Assembly: GCF_020990385.1 (NCBI RefSeq) | Contig: NZ_CP087598.1 | Span: forward strand, 354,001-418,000 | Source of the DNA: Paracoccus sp. MA | GTDB taxonomy: Bacteria; Pseudomonadota; Alphaproteobacteria; Rhodobacterales; Rhodobacteraceae | Direction of reading: 5' to 3' | DNA: 64,000 nt | Position numbers and translations under genes: made by a program | Shown here: positions 8,215 to 62,104 of the stretch, piece after piece | Layout of the letters: each line of letters starts with the position of its first letter | Position numbering within the stretch: the stretch's first letter is position 1 | The notes under the pieces: generated by a model | Told to the model about the DNA's origin: nothing | Database searches by the model: none | The model's input: the letters and a program-made list of their open reading frames with translations, nothing else

Positions 8215-9065
8215 GGTCGTGTTGACAAAAGGGATTCCTCTGGCAGTCGTCCTATGATTCAAGCTCATCTCTACGTGGGAGATGAACTTGGCACGCAACC
8301 TGATATCCGACGATGAGTGGACCTTCTTCGAGGGCTTCATTCGTGCCGTCCGGCACCCTAACGGGCGGAAACCTGCGGACCATCGTCTTGTTCTGAATGG
8401 TATATTCTGGATCGCAAGGACTGGTGCGCCATGGCGCGATCTGCCCGAAGAGTTTGGCAAGTGGTCCTCGGTCTACCGTCAGTTCCGCCGCTGGACTTTG
8501 GCGGGACTGTGGGAGGATATCCTGGATGCGCTGAACCACGCTGGGATCGCGCCAGACAAGCTCCAGATGGTTGATAGCACTGTGATCCGCGCCCATCATC
8601 ATGCGGCGGGCGCAAAAGGGGGACTCCGAAAGAGGCTCTTGGCCGTTCGAGAGGTGGCTTCTCGACCAAGATCCATCTCCGCGTCAACGGCGCAGGCCTC
8701 CCGATGAGGACCGAGATCACGCCGGGGCAGGATTCCGACTACACCGGCTATGATATGGTGATGGCCGACAACCTGCCGCAACCAGCAGTTCTGGTCGCCG
8801 ACAGGGGCTATGACTCTGATAAAATTCGGGAAGACATCGAGAGCCGCAACGCCCTGCCCATGATACCGATGCGAAGGAACCGAAGGGTGCGCAAGGCTGT
8901 CGACATGACCATCTACACCCTGCGCAACATGGTCGAGCGCTGCTTCAACAAGCTGAAAAATAGCCGCCGCCTTGCAACCCGCTACGACAAAACCGCCGAA
9001 AGCTTCCTTGGCTTCGTCGACGTCGCCTGCATCAGGCTCTGGCTCCGCCATTTGTCAACATGACC
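8215..9065 (+). mobile_element. IS5-family (IS427-like) insertion sequence, copy 1
   Basis: 851 bp with terminal inverted repeats GGTCGTGTTGACAAA on the left and, inverted, GGTCATGTTGACAAA on the right. It sits in a CTAG-type target with TA at both borders (8213-8214 and 9066-9067). It encodes a two-frame DDE transposase. A second copy follows 133 bp away in the same orientation and a third lies inverted at 28991. The three appear identical, implying recent spread. Confidence 0.93.
8282..9063 (+). CDS. IS5-family transposase, two overlapping frames (copy 1)
   Basis: Frame A (8282-8707) has the DUF4096-like N-terminus and the first catalytic Asp in MVDSTVIRAHH. Frame B (ATG at 8704 to 9063) has the second Asp in LVADRGYDSD and the Glu region RNMVERCFNKLK. 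The run A4G5 at 8614-8622 is where a -1 ribosomal frameshift would join them: after the shift the reading becomes TPKEALGRSRGG, which continues smoothly into frame B. The fused product is about 260 residues, the family's usual length. Neither frame alone has the full DDE triad. Confidence 0.88.
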
Positions 9066-9198: not shown

Positions 9199-10049
9199 GG
9201 TCGTGTTGACAAAAGGGATTCCTCTGGCAGTCGTCCTATGATTCAAGCTCATCTCTACGTGGGAGATGAACTTGGCACGCAACCTGATATCCGACGATGA
9301 GTGGACCTTCTTCGAGGGCTTCATTCGTGCCGTCCGGCACCCTAACGGGCGGAAACCTGCGGACCATCGTCTTGTTCTGAATGGTATATTCTGGATCGCA
9401 AGGACTGGTGCGCCATGGCGCGATCTGCCCGAAGAGTTTGGCAAGTGGTCCTCGGTCTACCGTCAGTTCCGCCGCTGGACTTTGGCGGGACTGTGGGAGG
9501 ATATCCTGGATGCGCTGAACCACGCTGGGATCGCGCCAGACAAGCTCCAGATGGTTGATAGCACTGTGATCCGCGCCCATCATCATGCGGCGGGCGCAAA
9601 AGGGGGACTCCGAAAGAGGCTCTTGGCCGTTCGAGAGGTGGCTTCTCGACCAAGATCCATCTCCGCGTCAACGGCGCAGGCCTCCCGATGAGGACCGAGA
9701 TCACGCCGGGGCAGGATTCCGACTACACCGGCTATGATATGGTGATGGCCGACAACCTGCCGCAACCAGCAGTTCTGGTCGCCGACAGGGGCTATGACTC
9801 TGATAAAATTCGGGAAGACATCGAGAGCCGCAACGCCCTGCCCATGATACCGATGCGAAGGAACCGAAGGGTGCGCAAGGCTGTCGACATGACCATCTAC
9901 ACCCTGCGCAACATGGTCGAGCGCTGCTTCAACAAGCTGAAAAATAGCCGCCGCCTTGCAACCCGCTACGACAAAACCGCCGAAAGCTTCCTTGGCTTCG
10001 TCGACGTCGCCTGCATCAGGCTCTGGCTCCGCCATTTGTCAACATGACC
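9199..10049 (+). mobile_element. IS5-family (IS427-like) insertion sequence, copy 2
   Basis: The same 851-bp element as copy 1, same orientation, bordered by TA (9197-9198 and 10050-10051) in a CTAA target. It splits the HNH endonuclease gene. As direct repeats 133 bp apart, copies 1 and 2 can recombine and may have produced the deletion that removed the integrase 3' end and the HNH 5' end. Confidence 0.93.
9266..10047 (+). CDS. IS5-family transposase, two overlapping frames (copy 2)
   Basis: Translation is identical to copy 1: frame A at 9266-9691, frame B at 9688-10047, with the A4G5 slip site at the equivalent position (about 9598-9606). A -1 shift yields the complete DDE transposase of about 260 residues. 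Confidence 0.88.
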
Positions 10050-10443: not shown

Positions 10444-10680
10444 CTATCTTTCTCCATCGGCAGAGTGCTGCACCCGTATCGCCTCGAACAGCCGCCGCAG
10501 GACGTAGGACCGCGCGATGCTGACCACGGTGAAAACTGCGCCCATTTTCAGGTTCTGGGCCAGCGTCGTGTGCAGCCCGAAGATGGGGAAGATCAGGATT
10601 TGCGTGGTCACGGCAACGCTGTAGCCAACGATCACGTTGGCGACGGATTCGACCAGCGACATGTGACGCGACTGTTTCAT
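10444..10680 (-). CDS. Small membrane protein of phage-like element (DUF7220-like)
   Basis: A 78-residue protein with two hydrophobic segments (VANVIVGYSVAVTTQILIFP and MGAVFTVVSIARSYVLRRLF). It overlaps the preceding methyltransferase stop in ATGA. Similar short proteins accompany alphaproteobacterial phage DNA-modification genes, and the pattern of two helices ending in SYxLRRLFE matches my recollection of DUF7220. Function is unknown. Being last in the long leftward gene block, it may be co-translated with the methyltransferase. Confidence 0.65.
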   Translation of the reverse strand: MKQSRHMSLVESVANVIVGYSVAVTTQILIFPIFGLHTTLAQNLKMGAVFTVVSIARSYVLRRLFEAIRVQHSADGER

Positions 10681-12053
10681 ACTGCGGTCTTGCGCTTTCG
10701 AGCAGGTTCGGGTTCGGCGTCGACGTTGGTCATTGCCGAGGGCACGGTATCGTCGTCGCCCAGCCGCTCGGTCCTCACCTCAGCGAAGGTCCGACAATCG
10801 CCATCGAGGATCGCGTCGCGGCCGGTCTCGGCCTGCCAGCGTTCCACGGCGACATCGACATAGGCCGAACTGATCTCCATCGCGAAGACGCGGCGGCCGT
10901 TGGCCTCGCCCGCCATGATCTGCGAGCCGGAGCCCGAGAAGGGCTCGTAGCAGAGGCCGCCTCGCGCGACGTGCTGGCGCATCGGGATCCCGAAGGCGTC
11001 CAGCGGCTTCGGCGTCGGATGGTCGGGGCGGTCGTCCTTGGCGAAGGACGGCAATTCCCATGTCGATGGCAGCGTCTGCTCGGCCACCTTCGGCGGCCGG
11101 TTCGGGCGACGCCAGCCCATGAAACAGGGTTCGTGCTTCCAGAGGTAGTGCGATCGGGTCAGGACGCCGCGATCTTTCACCCAGATGATCTGCTGGTGGA
11201 CGAAAGCTCCTGCCTTCTCCCAGCACGCTTCCAGCATCGCCTGGCGGCGGGAGGCGTGCCAGCAATACCAGGCGGCGTCGTCCGTGATCGCTTCGGCAAC
11301 GGCCGCCGCGATGAAGCCGTCGTAGAGTTCAGCCCCCTGTGAACTGTCGTCCCAGGTCACGCCATAGGACTGCGACCAGTCCTTGTTCCGCGTCGGGTGG
11401 TTCGAGCCGTCGTAATCCACCAGATACGGCGGATCGGTCGCGAACAGCACCGCGCGCTCTCCGTTCATCAGACGGCGCACGTCGGCTGCGCTGGTGCTGT
11501 CGCCGCAGAGCAGCCGGTGATCGCCGAGGATCCAGAGATCTCCGGTGCGCGACGCCGGATTGCGCGGCGGTTCGGGGATGGTCACCGGCGGCACGGAGCC
11601 CCCGGTGCCACTTTCTTCACCGTCGTCTTCCGCGACGTAGGCCAGCAGCTTGTCCAGTTCGCCATCGGAAAACCCGACCAGCGACAGGTCGAAGTCTTCG
11701 GCCAGCAGATCGTTCAGTTCTGCCGACAGCAGCGCCTCGTCCCAGGTGCCGAGTTCCGTCAGCTTGTTGTCCGCAATCCGGTAAGCCCGCCGCTGCGCCT
11801 CGGTCAGATGCCCCAGCACGATCACCGGCGCCTCGGTCAGCCCGAGCTGCGTCGCGGCCAGCACGCGTCCGTGGCCTGCGATCAGTTCCCCGTCCTCGCC
11901 CACGAGGCACGGCACGGTCCAGCCGAACTCGGCCATGCTGGCGGCGATCTTGGCGACCTGGTCCGCGCCATGCGCCTTCGCGTTCTTCGCGTAGGGCTGC
12001 AGGCGCGAGAGCGGCCAGGTCTCGATCGCGTCCGGGGCGAAGCTCAGCGTCAT
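10677..12053 (-). CDS. ParB-like nuclease domain fused to DNA methyltransferase
   Basis: A 458-residue two-domain protein. The N-terminal ParB/sulfiredoxin-like domain has LQPYAKNAKAH, then ELIAGHGRVLAATQLG and the RIADNKL segment. The C-terminal domain is an N4/N6 amino-methyltransferase with the catalytic TDPPY motif and the SAM-binding YEPFSGSGS motif. DPPY preceding FxGxG indicates the beta class order. The ATG at 12053 is chosen because the ParB domain begins within 15 residues; the open frame to 12173 adds only proline/arginine-rich sequence. No restriction partner is seen, so it is probably an orphan phage-type methylase protecting element DNA. Confidence 0.87.
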   Translation of the reverse strand: MTLSFAPDAIETWPLSRLQPYAKNAKAHGADQVAKIAASMAEFGWTVPCLVGEDGELIAGHGRVLAATQLGLTEAPVIVLGHLTEAQRRAYRIADNKLTELGTWDEALLSAELNDLLAEDFDLSLVGFSDGELDKLLAYVAEDDGEESGTGGSVPPVTIPEPPRNPASRTGDLWILGDHRLLCGDSTSAADVRRLMNGERAVLFATDPPYLVDYDGSNHPTRNKDWSQSYGVTWDDSSQGAELYDGFIAAAVAEAITDDAAWYCWHASRRQAMLEACWEKAGAFVHQQIIWVKDRGVLTRSHYLWKHEPCFMGWRRPNRPPKVAEQTLPSTWELPSFAKDDRPDHPTPKPLDAFGIPMRQHVARGGLCYEPFSGSGSQIMAGEANGRRVFAMEISSAYVDVAVERWQAETGRDAILDGDCRTFAEVRTERLGDDDTVPSAMTNVDAEPEPARKRKTAV

Positions 12054-12369
12054 GGTGGGCAAGGTTCCTCGGTCGGGTGGATGCCGGTGGCTTCCGGACT
12101 CCGGATGCCGCGCTGGACTCCACACGGGGTCCAGCGGCCACCAGCGGTGTCCGGTCGGAAGGCCAGCGTTCATTGGTGTTTGCGCGGGGCGCGCGTGGCT
12201 CCGGCTTCCGGGTGGCTTCCCAAAAAACCGGCCCTGTCGCTGGCGATATTCCGCGCTTCGCCCGCCAGCATACGAATATCGCCAGGAAGGAACCGGAAAC
12301 TGCCGCGGGCTGGACCCCGGCCGGACCCTCGATGGATACCGGGGTCCAGGTGGCCCCCGTCAACGCAAA

Positions 12370-12850: not shown

Positions 12851-13043
12851 GGCGCGCCTCCCTGTCGGAAGGGCGCGGGCCGTAGAGCTTCTCGCCGAGC
12901 TGGCGGACCAGTTCACGCTCGGGCCAGGTGAGGCGGTCGTCATCGGCGGAGACCGCGAGGACGCCCTGTTCCCGCCAGCCCTCGCGCTTGACCTGCTCGG
13001 GATCCCGGCGGCGGCCGCCGTAGCCGTGGGGATGCCATCTCAT
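12843..13043 (-). CDS. Small conserved element protein, unknown function
   Basis: A 66-residue basic/acidic protein beginning MRWHPHGYGGRRRDPEQVK and containing LTWPERELVRQLGEKLYG. It starts within the ATGA overlap region of the RuvC-like gene (stop 13040) and overlaps the next start by 8 bases. Tight packing supports a real gene. No family recognised. Confidence 0.55.
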   Translation of the reverse strand: MRWHPHGYGGRRRDPEQVKREGWREQGVLAVSADDDRLTWPERELVRQLGEKLYGPRPSDREARHG

Positions 13044-13579
13044 GCGACACCCCCGTTCGTCTCGATCGCCCAGAGCAGGAGCGCGATGGCGTCGGCCTCG
13101 TTGTCGTCGGCCGGGCTGAAGCCGCGAGCACGGACGGCGGCGACCATGGCGGCCTTGTCGGCGTTGCCCTTGCCTGCGGCATGACGCTTGATCGTGCCGA
13201 CCGGGACGCCCTCGTAGGGCACGCCGCGCAGTTCCGCCCATGCGGTCAGCGTGGCCATGAGCCCGCCGTAGATGTGGCTCGCATCGGTGCCGGCGTGGCG
13301 GCGGACTTCCTCGAACCAGATCGCGGCGACTGGACCGGACAGCCGGTCGACCTCGGTCAGCCAGTTAGTGAAGCGCAGGTAGCGCATGCCGCCGCCGTCG
13401 AAGCGGCCCGGGCGCAGCGAGACGGTGCCGCTGGTGATCAGACCGTCATGGCCGCGGATCGCCCAGCCGGTCGAGGTGCCGAGGTCGAGCGCGAGGATGC
13501 AGCGGTTGCGGGGGGTGTCGAGCGGCAGCGATTCAAACCTTGCGCCGTCGCAATTCGGGATCAGAGTCGGCTGAGCCAT
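13040..13579 (-). CDS. RuvC-like Holliday-junction resolvase family protein
   Basis: A 179-residue RNase H-fold protein. The first acidic residue is Asp32 in ILALDLGTSTGWAI, the second Glu lies in IWFEEVRRH, and the C-terminal Asp cluster is in DDNEADAIALLLW. This triad pattern is that of RuvC/phage junction resolvases. KAAGKGNADK-like sequence (HAAGKGNADKAAM) before the last motif is also typical. The start at 13579 has AAAGGAG upstream; the longer open frame (to 13753) would run through an inverted repeat. Likely processes recombination or replication intermediates of the element. Confidence 0.82.
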   Translation of the reverse strand: MAQPTLIPNCDGARFESLPLDTPRNRCILALDLGTSTGWAIRGHDGLITSGTVSLRPGRFDGGGMRYLRFTNWLTEVDRLSGPVAAIWFEEVRRHAGTDASHIYGGLMATLTAWAELRGVPYEGVPVGTIKRHAAGKGNADKAAMVAAVRARGFSPADDNEADAIALLLWAIETNGGVA

Positions 13580-13616
13580 GATGGGTCTCCTTTGCCGGTG
13601 GCCTGTGGTGGTGGAA

Positions 13617-13944
13617 GACGACGGCGGTCTGGTGCTTGGCGGTACGGGGCCGCCGTCGTCGGATCGGGAAGCACAACAGACCGTCACGGCGGCGCGCGCG
13701 GCTGACCCGGACGTATGGGAGGAGTGGCCAACCCTGTGGGGTGGCCCTCCCATACGTAGTATGGGGGTTTGACACCTAACTGTTCCGAGGCGTGCAAGTG
13801 GCTGAAATCATAGCGGAATAAGACTTCATGAAGTCTTCGGGCATGAGTTAGGGAGCTAACTCTTGTTTGCCCGTAACCCGTTGATTTCGTTGAGTGCACA
13901 GTTGGCGCTGTCATATGAGTCAGGCCTCACTCATATGAGTGAGG
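13617..13944. repeat. Cluster of five dyad symmetries between primase and RuvC-like genes
   Basis: Five perfect inverted repeats in 328 bp: GACGACGGCGG (13617-13627) with its complement at 13650-13660; ACGTATGGGAGG (13711-13722) with 13746-13757; the 18-mer AAGACTTCATGAAGTCTT (13820-13837); GAGTTAG (13845-13851) with 13856-13862; and the 20-mer CCTCACTCATATGAGTGAGG (13925-13944), with a further TCATATGAGT at 13911-13920. The 20-mer lies inside the last codons of the primase gene. No gene is convincing in 13580-13919. Candidate replication origin or operator array. Confidence 0.75.
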
Positions 13945-16241
13945 TCGTCCTCGAGCCCCTCCGGGTAGACCCAGACGGCGGGGTTTTCGACCTGCAGGCA
14001 GAGCCCGGACTGGGGGCATTTGAAGTGGCTGGGCAGGACCGGACGGGCGCTTGTGGTGACTTCGCCGGTGTCCGGATCGACATGCTCGACGGGCGCGCCG
14101 AACTGCATGCCTTCCACGCAGAGGTAGCCGAACCGGGACCGGGTGACGGGGAAGCCGAACCCCGAGGGGTCGCGCAGGAACTTCACGAAACCCTTGGTCG
14201 CCAGCACGCTGAGCCGCTCGCGGATGGTGTGCTTGCTGCCCAGACCGCCCTGGTTCTCGAAGGTCTCGGCAAACTGCATGGCGGTGTAGAGGCGCTCGCC
14301 CGCCGCCTCATCCAGCAGCATTCCGAGGATGACATCGTGCTTGCGCAGCCGTTCGGCATCGAGCCTGGCGCCCACCTCCTTGCGCACCAGGCGCTCGTTC
14401 AGCGGGTTCAGCTCGACCCATTCGCCCTTCACCTTGTCGATCAGCTTGCCCGGCAGCGCCGGTCCGTTCCGCAGCTCGATCTCCAGTCTGCGGACGGTGC
14501 TGTCCTCGTCAGGGCGATGCATGAGCAGCCCCGAGGTGTAGAAGCCGCGCAGCGCGCTGGCGCCGGAGAGGGCGAGGAACGGGTCGTCCTTGACCTGATG
14601 CTTGCTGGCCTTGCGGGTGTGGTGGGCGAGGATGACGCCCGCATCCGGATTGACGGCATCGCGGAGAAGCTCCACCCGGTCCTTCAGGAAGAACATCATG
14701 GCGGTGTTGTCGTTCTCGCCGCCACCCTCAGGTCCGCCGTCAAAGAGATTGCGGATCGGGTCGATGACGATGATGTCGGGTGGCGCGTCGGGAAATGCAG
14801 CCCGGATCGCCTCGGCCACGCGGGTGATCCCCTCCGCGTCGAGCAGCAGCTTCAGCTTCGGTGTGGCGATGAAGGTGTCGCGCGCGGCGGCGATCACGGT
14901 GGCGGGCAGCGCGATCTGCTGCATGCGCTCGCGCAGGTAGTGATACTGGATCTCGGCCTGCAGGTAGAACACGCGCAGCGGCCGGGGCGGCGTGAAGCCG
15001 AGGAACGGCACGCCCGCCGCCATGTGCACGAGCCAGGAGATCAGGAAGTCGCTCTTCCCGACCTTCGGCGCGCCCCCCAGCACCAGGAGACCGCCCGGCG
15101 TCAGTACGCGCGGCCCGATGACGTCCTCAGGCATCGGACTGGTGTCGTCCAGCAGCGCGCCGAGGCTGAAGGTCGGCAGCGGGCTGGCCGGGGCATCGAC
15201 ATGGGCTGCGCGCAGGAGCGGCGGACCGTTGCGCTTTACATGCAGCGCCCAGAGGCGTTCGGACTCGGCCATCAGCCGATCAAGCGGCCAGGACGGGCGC
15301 AGCATGGCGGCGTTGTAGCCGCAGATCGCTTCCCAGCCCGCGAAGGGGTCGAGGCGTCCCTCGTGCACAAGGCGGACGTAGTGGCCGATGGCGGCGCTGG
15401 CCCCCTGGAACCGGGACCAGTCGTCGACCGCGCCCTCCCGCACCGGCGTGGTGAGCACCGCGTCGATGCCGGGTTTCGCGGTCGGCGCGGTAGCGTCGCT
15501 GGCGAAGCCCACGCCCGGCAGCGGCGGCATGTCGGCGACCTTTTCCGCGAAATCGGCAAGATCCACCTCGACCTCTCGATGTTCGCGGATCTGCACGAGG
15601 CGTTGATGGCCGTGCTTGTGATAGACGGTGCCCGGCACACGGATCGGCTGGTGCGCCGAGCGGAAATGCGTGTCGCCGCCGACCTTCACGGCGATCTCGC
15701 CGCGCAGACGACAGAGGGTGGCCAGATCCTCGCCCTCGGCCGGTTCGGTCAACTGCCACCAGACATGGAGCTTCGCTGCACCCTCGGGCGTGCGCCCTCC
15801 GCTTTCGATGATGAGTGTGGGCGGGCCGAGGTAGCGCGTGACGTGATCCAGCTTGGCAGGGATGTCGCCCGCGTCGAGATCGACGACGATGGCCTGCATC
15901 TGCAGCACGTCGGCGGCGCGTGCCTGGCCCTGCTCGGCGACCGTGCCGGGGATGACATAGACGGCGGCGCCCTCGCGATTGGCCCATGCGGCAAAGGTCG
16001 CGAGCTTGTCGGGCGCGGTGTCGTCGGCGGGGATCCAGATGTTGTGCGGCTTGCCGTCCCGGCCCTGACCCTTGTCGACGAAGCCGCGGAGCGGGATCAG
16101 CCCCTCGCACCAGCTGAAGACCGTGTCGAGGAAGACGGCGATCTGCTCGGGGCCGGGGTCGCAGCCGAAGGGGTTCTCGGACGGCGGGCCGTCGTTGAAG
16201 TCCATCCAGGGGTTGAAGTGCAGGATGCCGTCGTCGCTCAT
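13920..16241 (-). CDS. Primase/helicase-like replication protein with AAA ATPase domain
   Basis: A 773-residue protein. The N-terminal third resembles a RepB/DNA-primase-type (prim-pol) domain: VVDLDAGDIP for metal binding, then FRSAHQPIRVPGTVYHK. The middle is a RecA-fold ATPase like RepA hexameric helicases, with Walker A GGAPKVGKSD, Walker B DIIVIDPIRN, and an AHHTRK sensor region. The C-terminus looks winged-helix-like. The start at 16241 overlaps the upstream gene in ATGA; the in-frame extension to 16286 is not needed. It is the best candidate replication initiator/primase of the element and its 3' end carries a palindrome. Confidence 0.8.
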   Translation of the reverse strand: MSDDGILHFNPWMDFNDGPPSENPFGCDPGPEQIAVFLDTVFSWCEGLIPLRGFVDKGQGRDGKPHNIWIPADDTAPDKLATFAAWANREGAAVYVIPGTVAEQGQARAADVLQMQAIVVDLDAGDIPAKLDHVTRYLGPPTLIIESGGRTPEGAAKLHVWWQLTEPAEGEDLATLCRLRGEIAVKVGGDTHFRSAHQPIRVPGTVYHKHGHQRLVQIREHREVEVDLADFAEKVADMPPLPGVGFASDATAPTAKPGIDAVLTTPVREGAVDDWSRFQGASAAIGHYVRLVHEGRLDPFAGWEAICGYNAAMLRPSWPLDRLMAESERLWALHVKRNGPPLLRAAHVDAPASPLPTFSLGALLDDTSPMPEDVIGPRVLTPGGLLVLGGAPKVGKSDFLISWLVHMAAGVPFLGFTPPRPLRVFYLQAEIQYHYLRERMQQIALPATVIAAARDTFIATPKLKLLLDAEGITRVAEAIRAAFPDAPPDIIVIDPIRNLFDGGPEGGGENDNTAMMFFLKDRVELLRDAVNPDAGVILAHHTRKASKHQVKDDPFLALSGASALRGFYTSGLLMHRPDEDSTVRRLEIELRNGPALPGKLIDKVKGEWVELNPLNERLVRKEVGARLDAERLRKHDVILGMLLDEAAGERLYTAMQFAETFENQGGLGSKHTIRERLSVLATKGFVKFLRDPSGFGFPVTRSRFGYLCVEGMQFGAPVEHVDPDTGEVTTSARPVLPSHFKCPQSGLCLQVENPAVWVYPEGLEDDLTHMSEA

Positions 16242-17008
16242 GCGGGCAGCCCCCAGCAGCGCTCGGCCCACGGGCAGAAGCGACATTCGAAGAAGTCGGA
16301 CGTGGTCGCGACGCGTGGAAGAAGCTCAGCCGCATCGGTCGCCTGCAGGATCCGCACGCCCCGGTCGGACATGCGCTGCGCGAGATCGGCATCGAACGCG
16401 ACCTGCTCGTGGTGCAGCTCGGCGGTGTCCTTGTTGATCGCGGTGAAGAGCGCAGGCGCGGCCGAGATGCCGGGGACCGTCCCTTCCATGTAGGCTTGGT
16501 AGACCGCGATCTGGGCGGCGTAGACCGGCTTGGACTTGGTCACGCCGTCCTTCACGCATGCGCGCCAGTTCTTCGCGTTCATGGTCTTGCATTCCCAGAG
16601 CGCGGGAACGGCCAGACCGAACTCCTCCGGCCCAGCAGCGATGATGCCGTCGACATGGCCGCGGATGCGTCCGCCCGCGACCGAGAAGCCGAACTGGCCG
16701 CCATCTGGCCGGTTGCCCCTCCGGGTGTAGAGGTCGAAGCCCGCGCCGCGCAGCCAGGCGACGGCCAGATCCTCGAGCGCGTGGCCGATCGCGAAGATGC
16801 GGAGCGACTGGCCGCTGAAGTCCTGGCCCTCGTCCTTCGGCGTCGCCGTGAACTCGAACTGAAGGGCACGCTCGCAGGCATGGCCGAGGCGCGAGCCGCC
16901 GAGATAGTCGCGGGGTGGCCGCGTCGCCTGATCGGCGGTGAGCACCCGATCGACGGCGGCGTCGACCTGCTCCGCGAAACTGGGCCGATGATTGTAATCG
17001 AGGGTCAA
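16238..17008 (-). CDS. PD-(D/E)XK nuclease, Cas4/RecB-like
   Basis: A 256-residue nuclease with the motif order GHVDGII then ALWECKTMNAKNW, giving the D...ExK active site, and a QIAVYQAYM motif as in RecB/Cas4 nucleases. Four cysteines, one near residue 48 (GHACERA) and three near the C-terminus (FECRFCPWAERCW), are placed like the Fe-S cluster ligands of Cas4/AddB-type enzymes. There is no CRISPR array nearby. In phage replication modules such proteins act as 5'-to-3' exonucleases for recombination. Overlaps neighbours by ATGA on both sides. Confidence 0.83.
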   Translation of the reverse strand: MTLDYNHRPSFAEQVDAAVDRVLTADQATRPPRDYLGGSRLGHACERALQFEFTATPKDEGQDFSGQSLRIFAIGHALEDLAVAWLRGAGFDLYTRRGNRPDGGQFGFSVAGGRIRGHVDGIIAAGPEEFGLAVPALWECKTMNAKNWRACVKDGVTKSKPVYAAQIAVYQAYMEGTVPGISAAPALFTAINKDTAELHHEQVAFDADLAQRMSDRGVRILQATDAAELLPRVATTSDFFECRFCPWAERCWGLPA

Positions 17009-17418: not shown

Positions 17419-19107
17419 TCATGCCGCCCTCCGTTCGGGCCGGGCGGCCGTGTCAATCAACTGGCGGATGGCGCGCTTGTTGAAGCCGAAGGTCATCAGC
17501 GCCGAGGCGCGGTAACGCGTCAGCCCGAAGTCATGGCGGCACTCGGGCGGCAGGTACTGGAGCTGCTTTTCGGTCGGCGGCTGGCGCAGCCAGGAACGGG
17601 TCTTGAAGGCGCTTTCGTCGGTCTCATGGGTATTCAGCCAGTCGTCTGCCTGCGCGAGGCAGACCGTGCGCTCGCCCACGCCCAGCAGATGCGGGCGCTC
17701 GCCCTTCGCCCCGCCGATGGCGTACCAGACCCCGTCCAGCCAGAAGATGCCGCCCCAGGCTGCGAAGCCCGTGGCCATCAGCGCGTCGTCCGTGCCGTAG
17801 AGGTCGACCCACGCGAAGCTGGAGCGCTTCAGCAGGTCGATCTCGGTCATCATGAAACCCGAGAGCGGCGCGGCGTCCCCACCTTCGCCCGCATCCAGGT
17901 CCTCACGCGGGAACGCCTCGCCGCAGAGCGGGCATTCGGTGGCGGCCAGCGGGATGTCGGCGCCGCAGCCGGGGCAGGATTTCGTCGGGGCTTCACCAAC
18001 CTCGGTCTGGCCGTCGAGATCGACATCCTGTTCCAGCGTGCCGTGGATCAGGCTCGACGTCCCGAAATCCAGCACGACGCAGTCGGTCTTGACGATGCCG
18101 GGGTGTTCCTCGGGATCGACGGTGCGCAGCCCGCGCCCGACCATCTGGATCATGGTGGACTTGTAGGAGCTGGGCCGCAGCAGCACGACGCAGGAGGTGG
18201 GCGGATGGTCCCAGCCCTCCGTCAGCACCGCCACGTTGACGATGACGCGGATGTCGCTCGCCGCGTAGTCGGCGAGGATCGCCTTGCGGGTCTCGGCCGC
18301 CAGATCGCCGTGGATCAGCGCGGCGGAAACGCCCGCCGCCCTGAAGGCGTCGGTGACGTGTTCGGCATGGGCGACGGTGGAGCAGAACACCACGGTCTGC
18401 CGGTCAGCCGCCTTCTCCTTCCAGTGGCGGATCACCTCGTCGGTGACGGGGGCGCGGTCCATGATGCCCGCCACTTCCGCCATGTCGAAATCCGACATGG
18501 TCTTGCGGACCGAGCGCAGTTCGTCCTGCACGCCCACGTCGATGACGAAGGTGCGCGGCGGCACCAAGTGGCCCGAGGCGATCAGCTCGCCCAACCGCAC
18601 CTGATCGGCGACATTGTCGAAGACCTCGCGCAGGCCCTTCCTGTCGCCCCGGTTCGGCGTCGCCGTGACCCCGAAGATGCGGGCGTCTGGATTGGCCTCG
18701 CGCACGCGGTCGATGATGCGGCGATAGCTGTCGGCGACGGCATGATGCGCCTCATCCACGACCAGCAGGTCGAGGCGCGGCATGTCCGCGAGGTTCGAGG
18801 CCCGCGCCAGCGTCGGCACCATGGCGAAGGCGACCTGGCCACCCCAGGACTTCTCCGTGGCGTCGATGACCGACGTGGCGACGCCCGGCAGCACGCGCTG
18901 GAACTTGGCGCGGTTCTGCGCCGTCAGTTCGTCGCGATGGGCCAGAACGCAAGCCTTCGCGCCGTCGCCGATCATCTCGCCGGTGACCGCCGAGAGCATG
19001 ATGGTCTTGCCAGCACCCGTGGGCGCCACGCCCAGCGTGTTGCCGCGGGAGGCGAGCGCAGCCACGCTGCGCTCGACGAAGGTCTTCTGGCGGGGGCGCA
19101 GGCGCAT
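17419..19107 (-). CDS. DEAD/DEAH-box superfamily II helicase
   Basis: A 562-residue helicase. Walker A is GVAPTGAGKT (near residue 27), motif II is VVDEAHHAVADS, motif III is TATP, and the second RecA lobe has MIQMVGRGLRT (motif VI). Between residues 385 and 410 there is a four-cysteine zinc ribbon (CPGCGADIPLAATECPLCGE). This combination is typical of phage/plasmid replication helicases related to RecQ/RadD. Starts at 19107, only 14 bases after the preceding gene. Likely unwinds origin or recombination intermediates for the element. Confidence 0.9.
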   Translation of the reverse strand: MRLRPRQKTFVERSVAALASRGNTLGVAPTGAGKTIMLSAVTGEMIGDGAKACVLAHRDELTAQNRAKFQRVLPGVATSVIDATEKSWGGQVAFAMVPTLARASNLADMPRLDLLVVDEAHHAVADSYRRIIDRVREANPDARIFGVTATPNRGDRKGLREVFDNVADQVRLGELIASGHLVPPRTFVIDVGVQDELRSVRKTMSDFDMAEVAGIMDRAPVTDEVIRHWKEKAADRQTVVFCSTVAHAEHVTDAFRAAGVSAALIHGDLAAETRKAILADYAASDIRVIVNVAVLTEGWDHPPTSCVVLLRPSSYKSTMIQMVGRGLRTVDPEEHPGIVKTDCVVLDFGTSSLIHGTLEQDVDLDGQTEVGEAPTKSCPGCGADIPLAATECPLCGEAFPREDLDAGEGGDAAPLSGFMMTEIDLLKRSSFAWVDLYGTDDALMATGFAAWGGIFWLDGVWYAIGGAKGERPHLLGVGERTVCLAQADDWLNTHETDESAFKTRSWLRQPPTEKQLQYLPPECRHDFGLTRYRASALMTFGFNKRAIRQLIDTAARPERRAA

Positions 19108-25303: not shown

Positions 25304-25755
25304 CGAAGCCCGATCCCATCCCCGCGCGCCTGGCCGCGCTGAAGTCCATGTCCGTCACCCAGTTGAAGGCGGAGTGGCAGACCATCTTTGCCACGGCGGC
25401 GCCAAACAATAGTCGGGCGTTTCTCGAGAGCCGGTTGGCCTACCGCATCCAGGAACTGACTTATGGCGGTCCTGATCGCGAAACCCGGCGCATGCTCGAC
25501 CTGCTAGCCGACGAGGTCGGCGGCAGCCTGACACGCAAGAGCCAGATCGCCGATCCTCGCAATCCCGTGGTCGGCACGAGGCTGATCCGAGAATGGAACG
25601 GGGTCGAGCACACGATCACGGTCTTGCGGGACGGATTCGAGTGGCAAGGGCGACCGTACAAATCCTTGTCCGCGATTGCGCGGGCGATCACCGGGACGCG
25701 CTGGAATGGCTACCGCTTCTTCGGGTTGCGCGAACGAAAGCGGGGGAATGATTGA
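25300..25755 (+). CDS. DUF2924 domain protein
   Basis: A 151-residue basic protein. LRLAYRIQEL-like text (SRLAYRIQELTYGG), GTRLIREWNGVEHTITVLRDGFEWQGRPYKSLSAIARAITGTRWNGYRFFGL is the DUF2924 signature, with the SLSAIARxITGTRWNGxxFFGL block best conserved. The ATG at 25300 follows CACCGGAGAAACGC. DUF2924 genes nearly always precede a large serine recombinase; a role as recombination directionality or DNA-binding partner is inferred. Confidence 0.88.
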   Translation: MTKPDPIPARLAALKSMSVTQLKAEWQTIFATAAPNNSRAFLESRLAYRIQELTYGGPDRETRRMLDLLADEVGGSLTRKSQIADPRNPVVGTRLIREWNGVEHTITVLRDGFEWQGRPYKSLSAIARAITGTRWNGYRFFGLRERKRGND

Positions 25756-27080
25756 TGGATCAGCGTCCAAATCCCGTCCGCCGCCAGCGCTGCGCTATCT
25801 ACACGCGCAAGTCGTCCGAGGAAGGGCTGGAGCAGGAGTTCAACAGCCTGCACGCCCAACGAGAGGCCTGCGAGGCCTACATCGCCAGCCAACGCTCCGA
25901 GGGCTGGGTTCTGGTCCGCGATCAGTATGACGACGGCGGCATCTCGGGCGGGACGCTGGAACGGCCCGGCCTTAAGCAGCTTCTGGCCGACATTGAGGAC
26001 GGCCTGATCGATGTGGTGGTCGTCTACAAGATCGACCGCCTGTCGAGGTCGCTGATGGACTTCTCGAAGCTGGTCGAGGTCTTCGACCGCAACGGCGTGA
26101 CTTTCGTGTCGGTCACGCAGTCCTTCAACACCACCACGTCCATGGGGCGGCTGACGCTGAACATCCTGCTCAGCTTCGCGCAGTTCGAGCGCGAGGTCAC
26201 GGCCGAGCGCATCCGGGACAAGGTCCGCGCCTCCCGTATGAAGGGCATGTGGATGGGCGGCTATGTCCCGCTCGGGTACGATGTGAAGGACCGCAAGCTC
26301 GTGGTGAATGAAAACGAGGCTGCCACCGTGCGGGGCATCTTCGAGAGGTTCGTCGAGGTCGGATCAGCGACCGTGCTGGCCCGCGAACTGCGCCGCAAAG
26401 GGCTCCGCAACAAGCAGGGCACCTTGGTCGACAAGGGATATCTCTACAGAGTGCTGGTGAACCGCGTCTATCGCGGCGAGGCGGTCCACAAGGGCAAGGC
26501 CTATCCCGGCGAGCATCAGGCCATCATCGACGAGCAGCTGTGGGATCAGGTCCATGCCATCTTGCGGCAGAATCCGCGAAAGCGCGCCAACAACACCCGC
26601 GCGCAGGCGCCAGCGCTGCTCAAGGGGCTGATCTTCACGGCCACGGGCGCCGCCATGACCCCGAGCAGCACGAAGAAGGGCGCGCGGCGATACCGGTACT
26701 ACGTCTCGATGGACGTCATCAAAAACCGCGAACCCAGCGATGAAGGCATCCCGCGCCGTCTTCCTGCCGACCTCGTGGAAGCGGCCGTGGTGACCGAGTT
26801 GCGGCGGGTGATGCGCGCGCCCTCGATCACGGCGCAGGTCATCGCCCACTTGGCGCGCGAGGGTCACGCCTTCGCCGAGGCCGACGTGATCTCCGCGCTG
26901 CAGACGTTCGATGACGTCTGGGCCCAGCTGTTCCCTGCGGAGCAGACCCGGATCGTACAGTTGCTGGTGCGCCGGGTCACTGTGACGTCCGAGGGGCTGG
27001 TGATCGATGTCCGGACCGACGGCGTCTCGGGCGTCATGCGCGACATGATGGCGCCACGAAAGAAGGTGGCGGCGGAATGA
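25755..27080 (+). CDS. Serine recombinase (resolvase/invertase family)
   Basis: A 441-residue site-specific recombinase. The catalytic Ser20 lies in YTRKSSEEGLEQEF; later landmarks are DGGISGGTLERP, VYKIDRLSRSLMDF and SFAQFEREVTAERIRDK. A recombinase domain (LVVNENEAATVRGIFERFVE) follows, but the C-terminal beta-ribbon lacks the usual zinc cysteines and there is no long coiled coil, making it shorter than typical large serine integrases. Starts in a TGATG junction with DUF2924. It may move the right part of the accessory region. Confidence 0.92.
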   Translation: MDQRPNPVRRQRCAIYTRKSSEEGLEQEFNSLHAQREACEAYIASQRSEGWVLVRDQYDDGGISGGTLERPGLKQLLADIEDGLIDVVVVYKIDRLSRSLMDFSKLVEVFDRNGVTFVSVTQSFNTTTSMGRLTLNILLSFAQFEREVTAERIRDKVRASRMKGMWMGGYVPLGYDVKDRKLVVNENEAATVRGIFERFVEVGSATVLARELRRKGLRNKQGTLVDKGYLYRVLVNRVYRGEAVHKGKAYPGEHQAIIDEQLWDQVHAILRQNPRKRANNTRAQAPALLKGLIFTATGAAMTPSSTKKGARRYRYYVSMDVIKNREPSDEGIPRRLPADLVEAAVVTELRRVMRAPSITAQVIAHLAREGHAFAEADVISALQTFDDVWAQLFPAEQTRIVQLLVRRVTVTSEGLVIDVRTDGVSGVMRDMMAPRKKVAAE

Positions 27081-28697: not shown

Positions 28698-28787
28698 TGG
28701 CGGAGACGAAGGGATTCGAACCCTCGAGGCGGTTTCCCGCCTGCACCCTTAGCAGGGGTGTGCCTTCGACCACTCGGCCACGTCTCC
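28698..28787 (-). tRNA. tRNA-Ser(GCT)
   Basis: A 90-base class II tRNA with CCA encoded. Acceptor GGAGACG pairs with CGTCTCC, discriminator G. The anticodon loop CTGCTAA gives GCT (AGC/AGU codons). The long variable arm is GCAGGCGGGAAACCGCCT-like and the T arm GAGGGTTCGAATCCCTT is canonical. A second common integration target, at the right side of the accessory region. Confidence 0.96.
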
Positions 28788-28990: not shown

Positions 28991-29841
28991 GGTCATGTTG
29001 ACAAATGGCGGAGCCAGAGCCTGATGCAGGCGACGTCGACGAAGCCAAGGAAGCTTTCGGCGGTTTTGTCGTAGCGGGTTGCAAGGCGGCGGCTATTTTT
29101 CAGCTTGTTGAAGCAGCGCTCGACCATGTTGCGCAGGGTGTAGATGGTCATGTCGACAGCCTTGCGCACCCTTCGGTTCCTTCGCATCGGTATCATGGGC
29201 AGGGCGTTGCGGCTCTCGATGTCTTCCCGAATTTTATCAGAGTCATAGCCCCTGTCGGCGACCAGAACTGCTGGTTGCGGCAGGTTGTCGGCCATCACCA
29301 TATCATAGCCGGTGTAGTCGGAATCCTGCCCCGGCGTGATCTCGGTCCTCATCGGGAGGCCTGCGCCGTTGACGCGGAGATGGATCTTGGTCGAGAAGCC
29401 ACCTCTCGAACGGCCAAGAGCCTCTTTCGGAGTCCCCCTTTTGCGCCCGCCGCATGATGATGGGCGCGGATCACAGTGCTATCAACCATCTGGAGCTTGT
29501 CTGGCGCGATCCCAGCGTGGTTCAGCGCATCCAGGATATCCTCCCACAGTCCCGCCAAAGTCCAGCGGCGGAACTGACGGTAGACCGAGGACCACTTGCC
29601 AAACTCTTCGGGCAGATCGCGCCATGGCGCACCAGTCCTTGCGATCCAGAATATACCATTCAGAACAAGACGATGGTCCGCAGGTTTCCGCCCGTTAGGG
29701 TGCCGGACGGCACGAATGAAGCCCTCGAAGAAGGTCCACTCATCGTCGGATATCAGGTTGCGTGCCAAGTTCATCTCCCACGTAGAGATGAGCTTGAATC
29801 ATAGGACGACTGCCAGAGGAATCCCTTTTGTCAACACGACC
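28991..29841 (-). mobile_element. IS5-family (IS427-like) insertion sequence, copy 3
   Basis: The same 851-bp IS in inverted orientation, bordered by TA at 28989-28990 and 29842-29843. It inserted into the CTAG formed by the end of the diverged IS remnant. With copies 1 and 2 in the opposite orientation 19 kb away, recombination would invert the whole accessory block between them. Confidence 0.93.
28993..29774 (-). CDS. IS5-family transposase, two overlapping frames (copy 3)
   Basis: Frame A is 29774 down to 29349 and frame B 29352 down to 28993. Both translations equal those of copies 1 and 2. The A4G5 slip site is retained, so a -1 shift can yield the full DDE transposase. Confidence 0.88.
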
Positions 29842-30578: not shown

Positions 30579-32027
30579 GTGACGGGGGCCGACGATCCGC
30601 TGCGCCACGAGCAGCGCGAGATGGTGACGCTGGTCACCGCGCGGGTGCGCGACGCCATCCTGCGCAAGCCGCATTTCGTCGATGCGGATACCGATCTGGT
30701 CACGCTCTGCGGCGAGCTGGCGGCGCGCGGCATCGCCGATGCGCTGGTGCGCGACGGCGACAGGCTCGGCATCTTCACCACGACGAACCTCGTGCAGGCG
30801 ATCCTGCGCGATGCGCCGCCCGCGGCGCTGAAGGTGCGCGACTTCACCAGCTTCAACCCCCGCTCGGTTTCGGTCGAGGACGACCTTTACGACGCGATGA
30901 TGCTGATGCTGCGGCACCGCATCCACCGCGTGCTGGTGCGCAAGGGCGACGAGGTGGTCGGCATCCTCAGCCAGATGGACCTGATGGGCTTCCTGGCCAA
31001 CCAGTCTCATCTGGTCTCGGCCGAGATCGCGCGGGCGACCAGCCCGGCCGAACTGGCCCGGCCCGCCGCCCAGGTCGAGGCGCTGATCCGCGTCCTGCAC
31101 GGCGACGGCGTCCGCATCGAGGTCATCGCCGGGCTGGTGGGCGGGCTGAACCGGCAGATCTTTCGCCGGCTGTGGCAGATGCTGGCGCCGCAGGCGCTGC
31201 GCGAGAACAGCTGCCTGATCGTCATGGGCAGCGAAGGCCGGTCCGAACAGATCATCCGCACCGATCAGGACAATGCGCTGATCCTGCGCGAGGGTTTTGC
31301 CTTCGACGGGCTCGACCGCGTGACGCGGGCCTTCACCGAGGCGCTGATCTCCTTCGGCTATCCGCCCTGTCCGGGCGGCATCATGCTGAGCCGGCCGCTG
31401 TGGTGCCAGGACGTGCGGGGCTTCGGCGACACGCTGCGCGACTGGATCCATGGCGACGACGCCGAGGGGCCGATGAACCTGGCCATCTTCCTCGACGCCG
31501 CCGCCGTCGCCGGGGACGAGAGCCTGCTGGCCGCGCTGCGCGAGCGGTTGCGGCGCATGCTGACCGGCAGCGACAGCTTTCACGCCCGCTTCGCCGCCGC
31601 GATCCGGCAGTTCGACAGCGGCGCCGAGGGCGGCTGGTGGCGCCGCCTGCCGGGCCTGCGCGGGCCCGAAGCGGCTGAGATCGACCTGAAGAAGCTGGGC
31701 ATCTTTCCGGTGGTGCATGGCACCCGGGCGCTGGCGCTGGAGCATGGCGTGGCCGCGACCGGCACCGCCGCCCGGCTGCAGGCGCTGTCCGCGGCGGGGC
31801 GCATCGACGCCGGGCTGGCCCGCGACCTGGCCGATGCGCTGCATTGCATGATGGCGCTGAAGCTGGACAGCAACCTGGCGCAGATCGCCCGCGGGCAGGC
31901 GCCCGACAACAGCATCCGCCCGGCCGAGCTGGGCCGGCTGGACCGGCAGGCCCTGCGCGATTCGCTGAACATCGTGCGGGACTTCAAGCAATGGCTGGGC
32001 CAGCATTACCGGCTGGACCTGCTATGA
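30579..32027 (+). CDS. CBS-pair / DUF294 nucleotidyltransferase-like protein
   Basis: About 482 residues: two CBS motifs (VRDAILRKPHFVDADTDL and HRVLVRKGDEVVGILSQMDL) followed by a DUF294 nucleotidyltransferase-like domain. LIVMGSEGRSEQIIRTDQDNALI gives the GSxxRxE...DxD active site of the GlnD/Pol-beta-like fold, and an alpha-helical C-terminal DUF294 domain follows. Many relatives also carry an N-terminal cyclic-nucleotide domain, absent here. I prefer GTG at 30579 with GGAGGGCGGGCG before it over TTG at 30546. Heads the transporter-kinase operon, where such proteins are thought to take part in acetate-type sensing. An IS110 scar ends about 230 bases upstream. Confidence 0.85.
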   Translation: MTGADDPLRHEQREMVTLVTARVRDAILRKPHFVDADTDLVTLCGELAARGIADALVRDGDRLGIFTTTNLVQAILRDAPPAALKVRDFTSFNPRSVSVEDDLYDAMMLMLRHRIHRVLVRKGDEVVGILSQMDLMGFLANQSHLVSAEIARATSPAELARPAAQVEALIRVLHGDGVRIEVIAGLVGGLNRQIFRRLWQMLAPQALRENSCLIVMGSEGRSEQIIRTDQDNALILREGFAFDGLDRVTRAFTEALISFGYPPCPGGIMLSRPLWCQDVRGFGDTLRDWIHGDDAEGPMNLAIFLDAAAVAGDESLLAALRERLRRMLTGSDSFHARFAAAIRQFDSGAEGGWWRRLPGLRGPEAAEIDLKKLGIFPVVHGTRALALEHGVAATGTAARLQALSAAGRIDAGLARDLADALHCMMALKLDSNLAQIARGQAPDNSIRPAELGRLDRQALRDSLNIVRDFKQWLGQHYRLDLL

Positions 32028-32269
32028 GGCGGCGCGACGGACCCCCGGCGCAGGTGCTGCTGGCGCTGTGCGGCGCCGGTTTCCTGCTGTTCAACTTTCC
32101 GCTGCTGCTGATCTGGGACCAGCCGCTGACGGTGCTTGGCCTGCCGCTTCTGCCGGTGGCGCTGTTCGTGATCTGGGCGGGGCTGATCGCGGCGCTGGCC
32201 TGGGTCAGCGCGTCGCGCGGCGGGCGGGGCGGCAAGGAGCCGGAGAAGCAGAAGGAGCGGGACGGATGA
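32024..32269 (+). CDS. Small two-helix membrane protein
   Basis: An 81-residue protein with two hydrophobic helices (VLLALCGAGFLLFNFPLLLI and LPLLPVALFVIWAGLIAALA) and a basic, charged C-terminal tail. It overlaps genes on both sides in ATGA. Small membrane partners of this size commonly precede solute:sodium symporter-type proteins, so it is probably an auxiliary subunit of the following transporter-kinase. No named family assigned. Confidence 0.72.
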   Translation: MRRRDGPPAQVLLALCGAGFLLFNFPLLLIWDQPLTVLGLPLLPVALFVIWAGLIAALAWVSASRGGRGGKEPEKQKERDG

Positions 32270-62033: not shown

Positions 62034-62104
62034 AATGGGTATTTGGAAAACAGAGAAGATCCGAGCGAGGCGGCTCGTGCTTCTCTGTTTTCCAAATACC
62101 CATT
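62034..62104. repeat. Perfect 25-bp inverted repeat of the GGGTATTTGGAAAAC family
   Basis: Positions 62034-62058 and 62080-62104 are exact inverted copies, with a loop that itself contains a CGAGC/GCTCG hairpin. Each arm carries the core GGGTATTTGGAAAACAGAG found singly at 4575-4596. It stands between convergent petR and secA and could form a bidirectional terminator-like hairpin. Confidence 0.9.

Follow-up and report, generated by a model that had tools for sequence, protein, structure and literature searches.

The C-terminal domain of SaPI Rep is described as reading iterons that lie directly 3' of its own gene (PMC7581432), and the same rep-ori layout, with two iteron sets flanking an A+T-rich stretch, is reported for PICIs (PMC6092414). 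In both, the initiator helicase is self-encoded and sometimes fused to a primase, and the iterons follow directly downstream of its gene (PMC6092414, PMC7581432). The satellite PLE RepA is reported to bind iterons as well (PMC7145576). The locus described here resembles the PICI/SaPI systems in layout, with a putative origin immediately 3' of the initiator gene and iteron sets around an A+T-rich stretch. It differs from them in the helicase, for which AAA_25 (RepA/DnaB type) was the only Pfam match here as against DUF927 or D5/Primase_Cterm there, in the addition of a pair of IHF-like sites and a hairpin, and in its carriers, which are phage-like elements mostly of Alphaproteobacteria.

The RSF1010 (IncQ) oriV is described as having iterons plus stem-loops that serve as priming sites (PMC4234260). 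Iterons and hairpins are present here too, the priming role of the latter being putative, and the primase and helicase resemble RepB' and RepA at the level of predicted fold only. RepA, RepB' and RepC are three proteins in RSF1010, whereas one polypeptide is found here, and the separate RepC contrasts with a predicted winged helix within the same protein. The pRN1 initiator is described with an AEP primase, a helicase and a C-terminal winged helix, and its origin lies 3' of the gene with a stem-loop conserved more in structure than in sequence (PMC4234260). Our locus shares these three domains and a candidate origin 3' of the gene with a stem-loop, but the pRN1 account gives an SF3 helicase and no iterons (PMC4234260). 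PrimPol-PV1 (PrimQH family) is described as combining an AEP primase, a P-loop helicase, including the RepA type, and a C-terminal WH, and its authors suggested that the C-terminal winged helix of AEP-helicase fusions may read the origin (PMC5862659). We liken our protein to these primases by description (AEP primase, RepA-type helicase, C-terminal WH) and not as a family assignment. Phage P4 alpha unites primase, helicase and origin binding in one protein, and its helicase is SF3. The present system resembles P4 alpha and ori/crr in joining primase, helicase and putative origin binding in one protein, and differs from it in the types of both enzymes. The P4 primase is given as Toprim (PMC4234260). 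Among open-licence titles on iteron origins in Rhodobacter/Rhodobacteraceae prophages, none concerned this family, of which a print account may exist.

Here we propose that a dyad-rich region of Paracoccus sp. MA is very probably the replication origin of a temperate-phage-derived element, placed immediately 3' of the gene for a one-polypeptide initiator. The proposal draws on repeat-word classes, their coupling to initiator residues 640-770, the spacing of IHF-like sites, hairpin pairing and predicted domain folds.

Results

Dyads between the initiator and RuvC-like genes

The window is the whole 64,000-nt stretch that was analysed (features in Table 1). The first-pass annotation had listed five dyads packed into 13617-13944, between the primase-helicase and RuvC-like genes, and had considered chance clustering very unlikely. 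Inspection of the sequence found every dyad in its place, with the two flanking genes both on the minus strand. A count of inverted repeats that required arms of 9 bp or more and allowed spacers of up to 24, which leaves the 7-bp dyad out, gave 32 in the window, a mean of 0.16 per 328 bp, and five of these fell inside this stretch. Among all 328-bp stretches of the window, only those starting at 13607-13638 held five; those with four all overlapped the cluster, and elsewhere none reached four. With 20 and 18 bp, the two intact palindromes of the cluster exceed every other perfect palindrome of the window, the next longest having 16 bp. The clustering is unusual, and the 20-mer does lie within primase codons, being covered by the initiator ORF. 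GC content falls to 48.6% over 13772-13919 (148 bp), with only 0.1% of the window's 148-bp windows lower. Far from the cluster, a perfect inverted repeat at 62034-62104 (25-bp arms, 21-nt spacer) is the window's longest at spacers up to 30.

Table 1. Positions of the features of the candidate origin and its neighbours in the window.
Feature	Position	Strand	Basis or detail
DEAD-type helicase	17419-19107	-	Pfam/PHROG
Cas4-type exonuclease	about 16238-16993	-	Pfam/PHROG
Initiator gene, primase-helicase with predicted C-terminal winged helix, 788 aa	13920-16286	-	ORF, AAA_25, phrog_239 'DNA primase/helicase', fold matches
N-terminal AEP-type primase domain, residues about 46-252	15531-16151	-	Foldseek; borders from predicted secondary structure
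RepA/DnaB-type helicase domain, residues 379-561	14604-15152	-	Pfam AAA_25 E 2.9e-22
Word-coupled C-terminal domain, residues 636-775 (predicted winged helix 636-724)	13962-14381	-	structure models, label-change step near 640
20-bp palindrome CCTCACTCATATGAGTGAGG, two head-to-head iterons	13925-13944		overlaps the primase's last codons
Third iteron CCTGACTCATATGA, extra half-copy	13911-13924	-	
IHF-consensus site 1, AATCAACGGGTTA	13874-13886	-	consensus match, exact
Inverted iteron pair AACTCAT / AAGAGTT	13843-13865		contains the 7-bp dyad
GAGTTAG/CTAACTC dyad	13845-13862		7-bp arms, 4-nt loop
18-bp palindrome AAGACTTCATGAAGTCTT	13820-13837		
IHF-like site 2, TTTCAGCCACTTG	13795-13807	-	consensus match, one mismatch; 79 bp from site 1
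Degenerate iteron CTAACTGTT, the last ahead of hairpin 1	13776-13784	+	sequence
Hairpin 1, long stem 13711-13757 or short stem 13749-13765, one arm shared	13711-13765	-	covariation; z -3.33
12-bp inverted arms ACGTATGGGAGG	13711-13722 / 13746-13757		23-nt spacer
Hairpin 2, upstream of RuvC-like gene	13617-13660	-	alignment; z -3.69
11-bp inverted arms GACGACGGCGG	13617-13627 / 13650-13660		22-nt spacer
RuvC-like resolvase gene, right flank	13040-13579	-	phrog_159 E 7.5e-29
ORF matching ParB-like families and N6/N4 DNA methyltransferase	10677-12173	-	

The initiator and its iterons

Foldseek matched the primase domain to 6zp9 (S-2L PrimPol) and to 3h20/3h25 (RSF1010 RepB'; 3h20 E 2.4e-7), and matches of the helicase domain included 1olo (E 4.2e-6), 1nlf and 1g8y, which are RSF1010 RepA. 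The model of the C-terminal domain matched winged-helix folds and resembled MarR/Fur-type repressor folds. By sequence, the initiator returned a single row from the PDB (E 0.22), with no RSF1010 chain among the matches at E up to 1.

The five dyads are real but do not form one feature; they represent at least two things, iteron pairs and two hairpins. The 20-mer, the partial copy beside it and the 7-bp dyad all consist of a single short repeat with the core ACTCAT (the iterons), and this word also occurs as single and direct copies. The 18-bp palindrome is perhaps a degenerate iteron pair of the same class (class A, below); ACTCAT copies occupy its place in three relatives (L329, L333 and L339). 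On the minus strand, starting at the primase end, the order of the parts is 20-mer pair, third iteron, IHF site 1, inverted pair, 18-bp palindrome, IHF-like site 2, degenerate iteron, hairpin 1, hairpin 2 and RuvC. An iteron-like copy ahead of hairpin 1 was seen by eye in many relative loci. In the window the best 8-mer was counted six times (at most one mismatch, both strands), and 100 shuffles gave at most five.

No DnaA box within two mismatches of the consensus TTATCCACA was found in 13500-14000. Such boxes are present in many iteron-type origins, and they are perhaps dispensable where the initiator supplies its own helicase. A clear GC-skew turn was not found in the window. A strong AT skew (-0.33) was seen at 32001-34000, where long open frames run on both strands.

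Repeat words and IHF-like sites in relatives

Relatives were drawn from five listings (best 80 each), and duplicate viral contigs were merged by sequence before counting. An early comparison had dropped 157 of 180 loci. We kept 360 of 397 loci with a complete ORF end, at least 330 bases downstream and no N, which gave 126 representatives; the 121 with a protein of at least 740 aa were used, 112 of them in the RuvC tree. Relatives are common, with at least 80 matches each among genome contigs and viral contigs, and the protein relatives listed are the best 120 of 622. The initiator query matched 47 of 296 genomes of the family, many of the matches being weak or covering part of the protein. No phage-collection record shared this DNA at blastn sensitivity; at the protein level, nine Wolbachia phage WO records matched the helicase part and four plasmid-collection records matched, one of them (Shinella) at full length.

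Clustering of the arrays in the 121 non-redundant loci, at a threshold of 0.72 chosen by us, gave 11 classes of repeat word. The conservation of the dyads that the first-pass annotation had proposed to look for was not found: 97 of the 121 representatives belong to other classes and carry other words in the same intergenic place, among them TTCGTCCTC, CAGTTTCGG, AAGTTGGGA, GAAATCTGG, AGAATCCGG and AACTCCTC, as well as CTGTCAT, CCTCATC, GACTTCG and ACCGCAA. In the first 64 loci, array length, counted from 30 bp before the primase stop up to the hairpin, hardly varied within most types: it was 182 bp in 29 of 30 arrays of type A, 208 bp in all 5 of B, 226 bp in all 3 of C, 311-313 bp in E (n = 15) and 206-208 bp in G (n = 4). 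It ranged over 304-334 in F and 134-190 in H. Repeat counts exceeded all 15 shuffles of the same array in 83 of the 121 loci and did not exceed the best shuffle in the other 38; over the first 220 bp, class E repeats did not exceed shuffles and class F was barely above them. A 76-aa ORF at 13684-13914 (minus strand) was rejected as a gene: it had no Pfam/PHROG match, and most of the stretch could not be aligned between word classes.

Sites similar to the IHF consensus WATCARNNNNTTR recurred as pairs. With at most one mismatch, pairs 79-81 bp apart on the primase-sense strand were present in 69 of the 121 loci, compared with none on the other strand and none in 605 shuffled arrays. Allowing two mismatches raised the number to 83 loci, but eight then appeared on the other strand and 10 among the 605 shuffled arrays. 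The pair occurred in nine of the 11 classes (A 23/24, D 17/27, H 8/9, K 8/9, G 4/5, J 4/4, C 3/3, B 1/3, I 1/1) and in none of the 36 loci of classes E and F. The spacing would correspond to about 7.5 helical turns between the putative IHF bends.

The genome from which the window comes carries a second initiator (G000:C2:1457202-1459391; L399, L430), 66% identical, of the TTCGTCCTC class and with the same hairpin 1 type. Ten genomes held two or three copies, and two of the 16 within-genome pairs were of like class (G023 A-A and G341 A-A). The avoidance of like classes by co-resident copies that we had expected beforehand was not seen when the 23 labels were permuted (mean 1.96, P(at most 2) 0.70), in a comparison in which G297b is only E-like and genomes with a fragmentary second match were left out.

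Two hairpins downstream of the array

Hairpin 1 was aligned for 34 sequences of classes A, B, C, G, H and I (33 hand-picked from 38, plus the window). In this alignment 95.1% of the cells of the long stem were paired, with 6 of 15 pairs changed on both sides, a level reached by none of 500 shuffles; the short stem was paired in 100% of cells and is mutually exclusive with the long one. In classes D, E, F, J and partly K, the array is followed by strong hairpins that differ from this one in sequence. Hairpin 2, aligned for 25 sequences (24 hand-picked from 28, plus the window), keeps the loop GTACCGCCAAGCAC in most of these loci, with variants such as GACCTGCCCAGGCA, and 3 of its 9 stem pairs are changed on both sides. 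Loop and variants were observed in the window and in L064, L091, L098, L094, L164 and L179; the loop GTACCGCCAAGCAC occurs once in its own genome, and hairpin 2 was not seen in some loci of other word classes.

The RuvC-like frame is open further upstream (13040-13753). We placed its start at 13579 for two reasons: many relatives align there with their first residue, and the interval from the primase stop changes by non-multiples of 3. Because of this variation we take the hairpins as non-coding.

It is possible that hairpin 2 is an RNA leader of the RuvC-like gene. More broadly, both hairpins could act in mRNA as an attenuator or leader of this gene and leave a replication role to the iterons only, which we regard as unlikely, though the strongest of the alternatives. 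Two stems that share one arm and exclude each other would suit such a role, as would a mostly constant loop on a stem with two-sided changes, the end of hairpin 2 about 37 nt ahead of the RuvC start, and the better folding of both hairpins than of shuffles. However, the transcript strand has no T-run after either hairpin, the sole terminator-like match lies on the other strand at the iteron pair, and no Rfam match was found here. The reading as priming sites within an origin, by analogy with the RSF1010 ssi and the pRN1 stem-loop, we hold with slightly less than even confidence.

Word class follows the C-terminal domain of the initiator

We counted changes of word class on trees of 55-residue windows of the initiator (121 loci). 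Eleven windows within residues 40-634 required 41-52 changes. The number fell to 37, 27 and 20 as the window start moved to 595, 610 and 625, and reached 13-15 in the six windows starting from 640 to 716 (residues 640-770), with 10 as the minimum; shuffled labels averaged 72-80. Longer segments behaved similarly (residues 20-350, 44 changes; 370-620, 45; 655-770, 13), and the RuvC tree (112 rows) required 42. The border of the coupling near residue 640 is the start of the predicted C-terminal winged helix. From these counts we infer that the C-terminal domain and the array form a module that recombination seldom breaks up, whereas on either side of it recombination is frequent.

Pairwise comparisons, in which array similarity was a label-free, strand-symmetric 6-mer measure, agreed with this. 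Across the 121 loci, iteron similarity had a partial rank correlation of 0.584 (0 of 1000 permutations) with the C-terminal part when the rest was controlled for, and of 0.069 with the rest when the C-terminal part was; the first 64 loci gave 0.757 (0 of 2000) and -0.017. Along the primase of these 64 loci, the rank correlation of its identity with the array lay at 0.24-0.37 over residues 1-640, rose to 0.50 over 640-680 and was 0.67-0.77 past that point. In the 121 loci, where the array segment was shorter, it was at most 0.25 before 640 and then 0.27, 0.42, 0.52 and 0.68, the last window including codons that overlap iterons in class A. In the 64 loci, hairpin-1 DNA and RuvC retained partial correlations of 0.51 and 0.27 with the C-terminal part. 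Thirty-seven of the top 40 class-diagnostic positions fell at residues 651-780.

Individual loci illustrate the exchange. In four relatives (L055, L059, L162 and L168), identity to the window protein stays at 0.86 or higher in each 50-aa window across residues 51-600 but is 0.52-0.61 after residue 700, and the words differ. Conversely, the bodies of L064 and L074 have diverged, yet their C-terminus remains similar (0.78-0.94) and their word is A. Among the 524 pairs whose C-termini were 0.8 or more identical, 521 shared their word class, and all three exceptional pairs involve L335, which has a changed word on a class-A-like C-terminus. L335 differs from L339 at 25 positions after residue 640; two of these changes, M670T and S693G, match the class with the more similar word, and a tie between them and the word change is suggestive only. 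In the course of evolution, the repeat motifs were apparently exchanged many times along with the part of the initiator that probably reads them.

Neighbouring words and C-terminal coding sequence could also recombine together by linkage only, with no functional link. The C-terminal codons do adjoin the iterons, and the pairwise correlation in the 121 loci climbs towards them. The label changes, in contrast, stay flat at 13-15 across residues 640-770 (~400 bp), they rise to 41 as the 55-residue window slides back by 60 residues to 580-634, and both flanks need many more (44-45 and 42). We believe linkage contributes to the coupling, but the flat level and the step near 640 argue against linkage alone, which we consider improbable.

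The reading as an origin remains the best supported, and its link to the neighbouring primase was rightly drawn by the first-pass annotation. The dyads as such are not the conserved part, but the word is replaced jointly with the initiator C-terminal domain. Because of this joint replacement, the absence of the same dyads in relatives, which the first-pass annotation had counted as a refutation, supports an origin.

Setting of the element

The cluster is surrounded by a minus-strand block of replication and recombination genes. A large serine recombinase with Resolvase and Recombinase domains (25752-27080), near a tRNA-Ser (28698-28787), could be the element's integrase. Copies of an IS4/5-type transposase ORF pair, three in all, lie on the two sides of the element block (8282-9063, 9266-10047 and 28993-29774). 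Since no tailed-phage structural gene was found among the element proteins scanned, the copy in the window may be a remnant or a truncated prophage. A glycine riboswitch aptamer lies at 2811-2899 (65 bits).

Discussion

In the origin that we propose, the winged-helix C-terminal domain of the 788-aa initiator would bind the iterons directly downstream of its own gene, and IHF, bending the DNA at the two sites 79-81 bp apart, would join the iteron groups. The RepA/DnaB-type helicase domain of the same polypeptide would then be loaded and open the duplex, for which the A+T-richer iteron stretch is the candidate site of melting. On single-stranded DNA, hairpin 1, joined in some of the relatives by hairpin 2, could fold and offer a start site to the RepB'-like primase domain, which is the least certain step. 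Several results speak against this reading: classes E and F have no IHF-like pair and weak repeats, 38 loci do not rise above their shuffles, hairpin-1 DNA and RuvC keep some correlation with the C-terminal part, L335 has a changed word, no DnaA box or clear GC-skew turn was found, and hairpin 2 is not seen in every locus.

Autoregulation is frequent in iteron initiators, and IHF sites occur in promoters too. The iterons might accordingly be operators, bound by the winged helix, with its resemblance to MarR/Fur-type repressor folds, or by an unrelated repressor, and regulate the RuvC-like operon or the initiator gene at the level of transcription. We find this quite unlikely: the region lies 3' of the initiator gene between co-directional genes, a search limited to sigma-70-like promoters found none, RuvC does not track word class (42 changes), and arrays mostly of 182-334 bp (class H 134-190), near-constant within most types, exceed the size expected of an operator. 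A role as parS-like centromere of the ParB-like/methyltransferase protein is highly improbable, since the word tracks another protein, the initiator, through its C-terminus (trees of initiator segments and RuvC), even though that ORF has ParB-like PHROG matches (phrog_620 E 1.2e-53) and inverted repeats are typical of parS.

An origin of this kind is known (PICI/SaPI, P4, RSF1010, pRN1); the combination of features with a swapping specificity cassette is, we believe, new. Judging from the comparative data, and tentatively, one phage replication module may have at least 11 origin-specificity types, its cassette of winged helix and iterons passing between replicons that are otherwise almost identical. 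Selection on phages that share a cell to keep their replicons independent may maintain these types. If this is true, they would be phage incompatibility groups with a recognition code readable from sequence. The finding bears on how an initiator may alter its origin specificity without killing the replicon, and it lends comparative support to the suggestion, as published, that the C-terminal winged helix reads the origin (PMC5862659). It also marks candidate origins in many prophage-like elements. With 11 word classes on related, partly near-identical bodies in 121 loci, the putative winged-helix-to-iteron code would be directly testable by binding.
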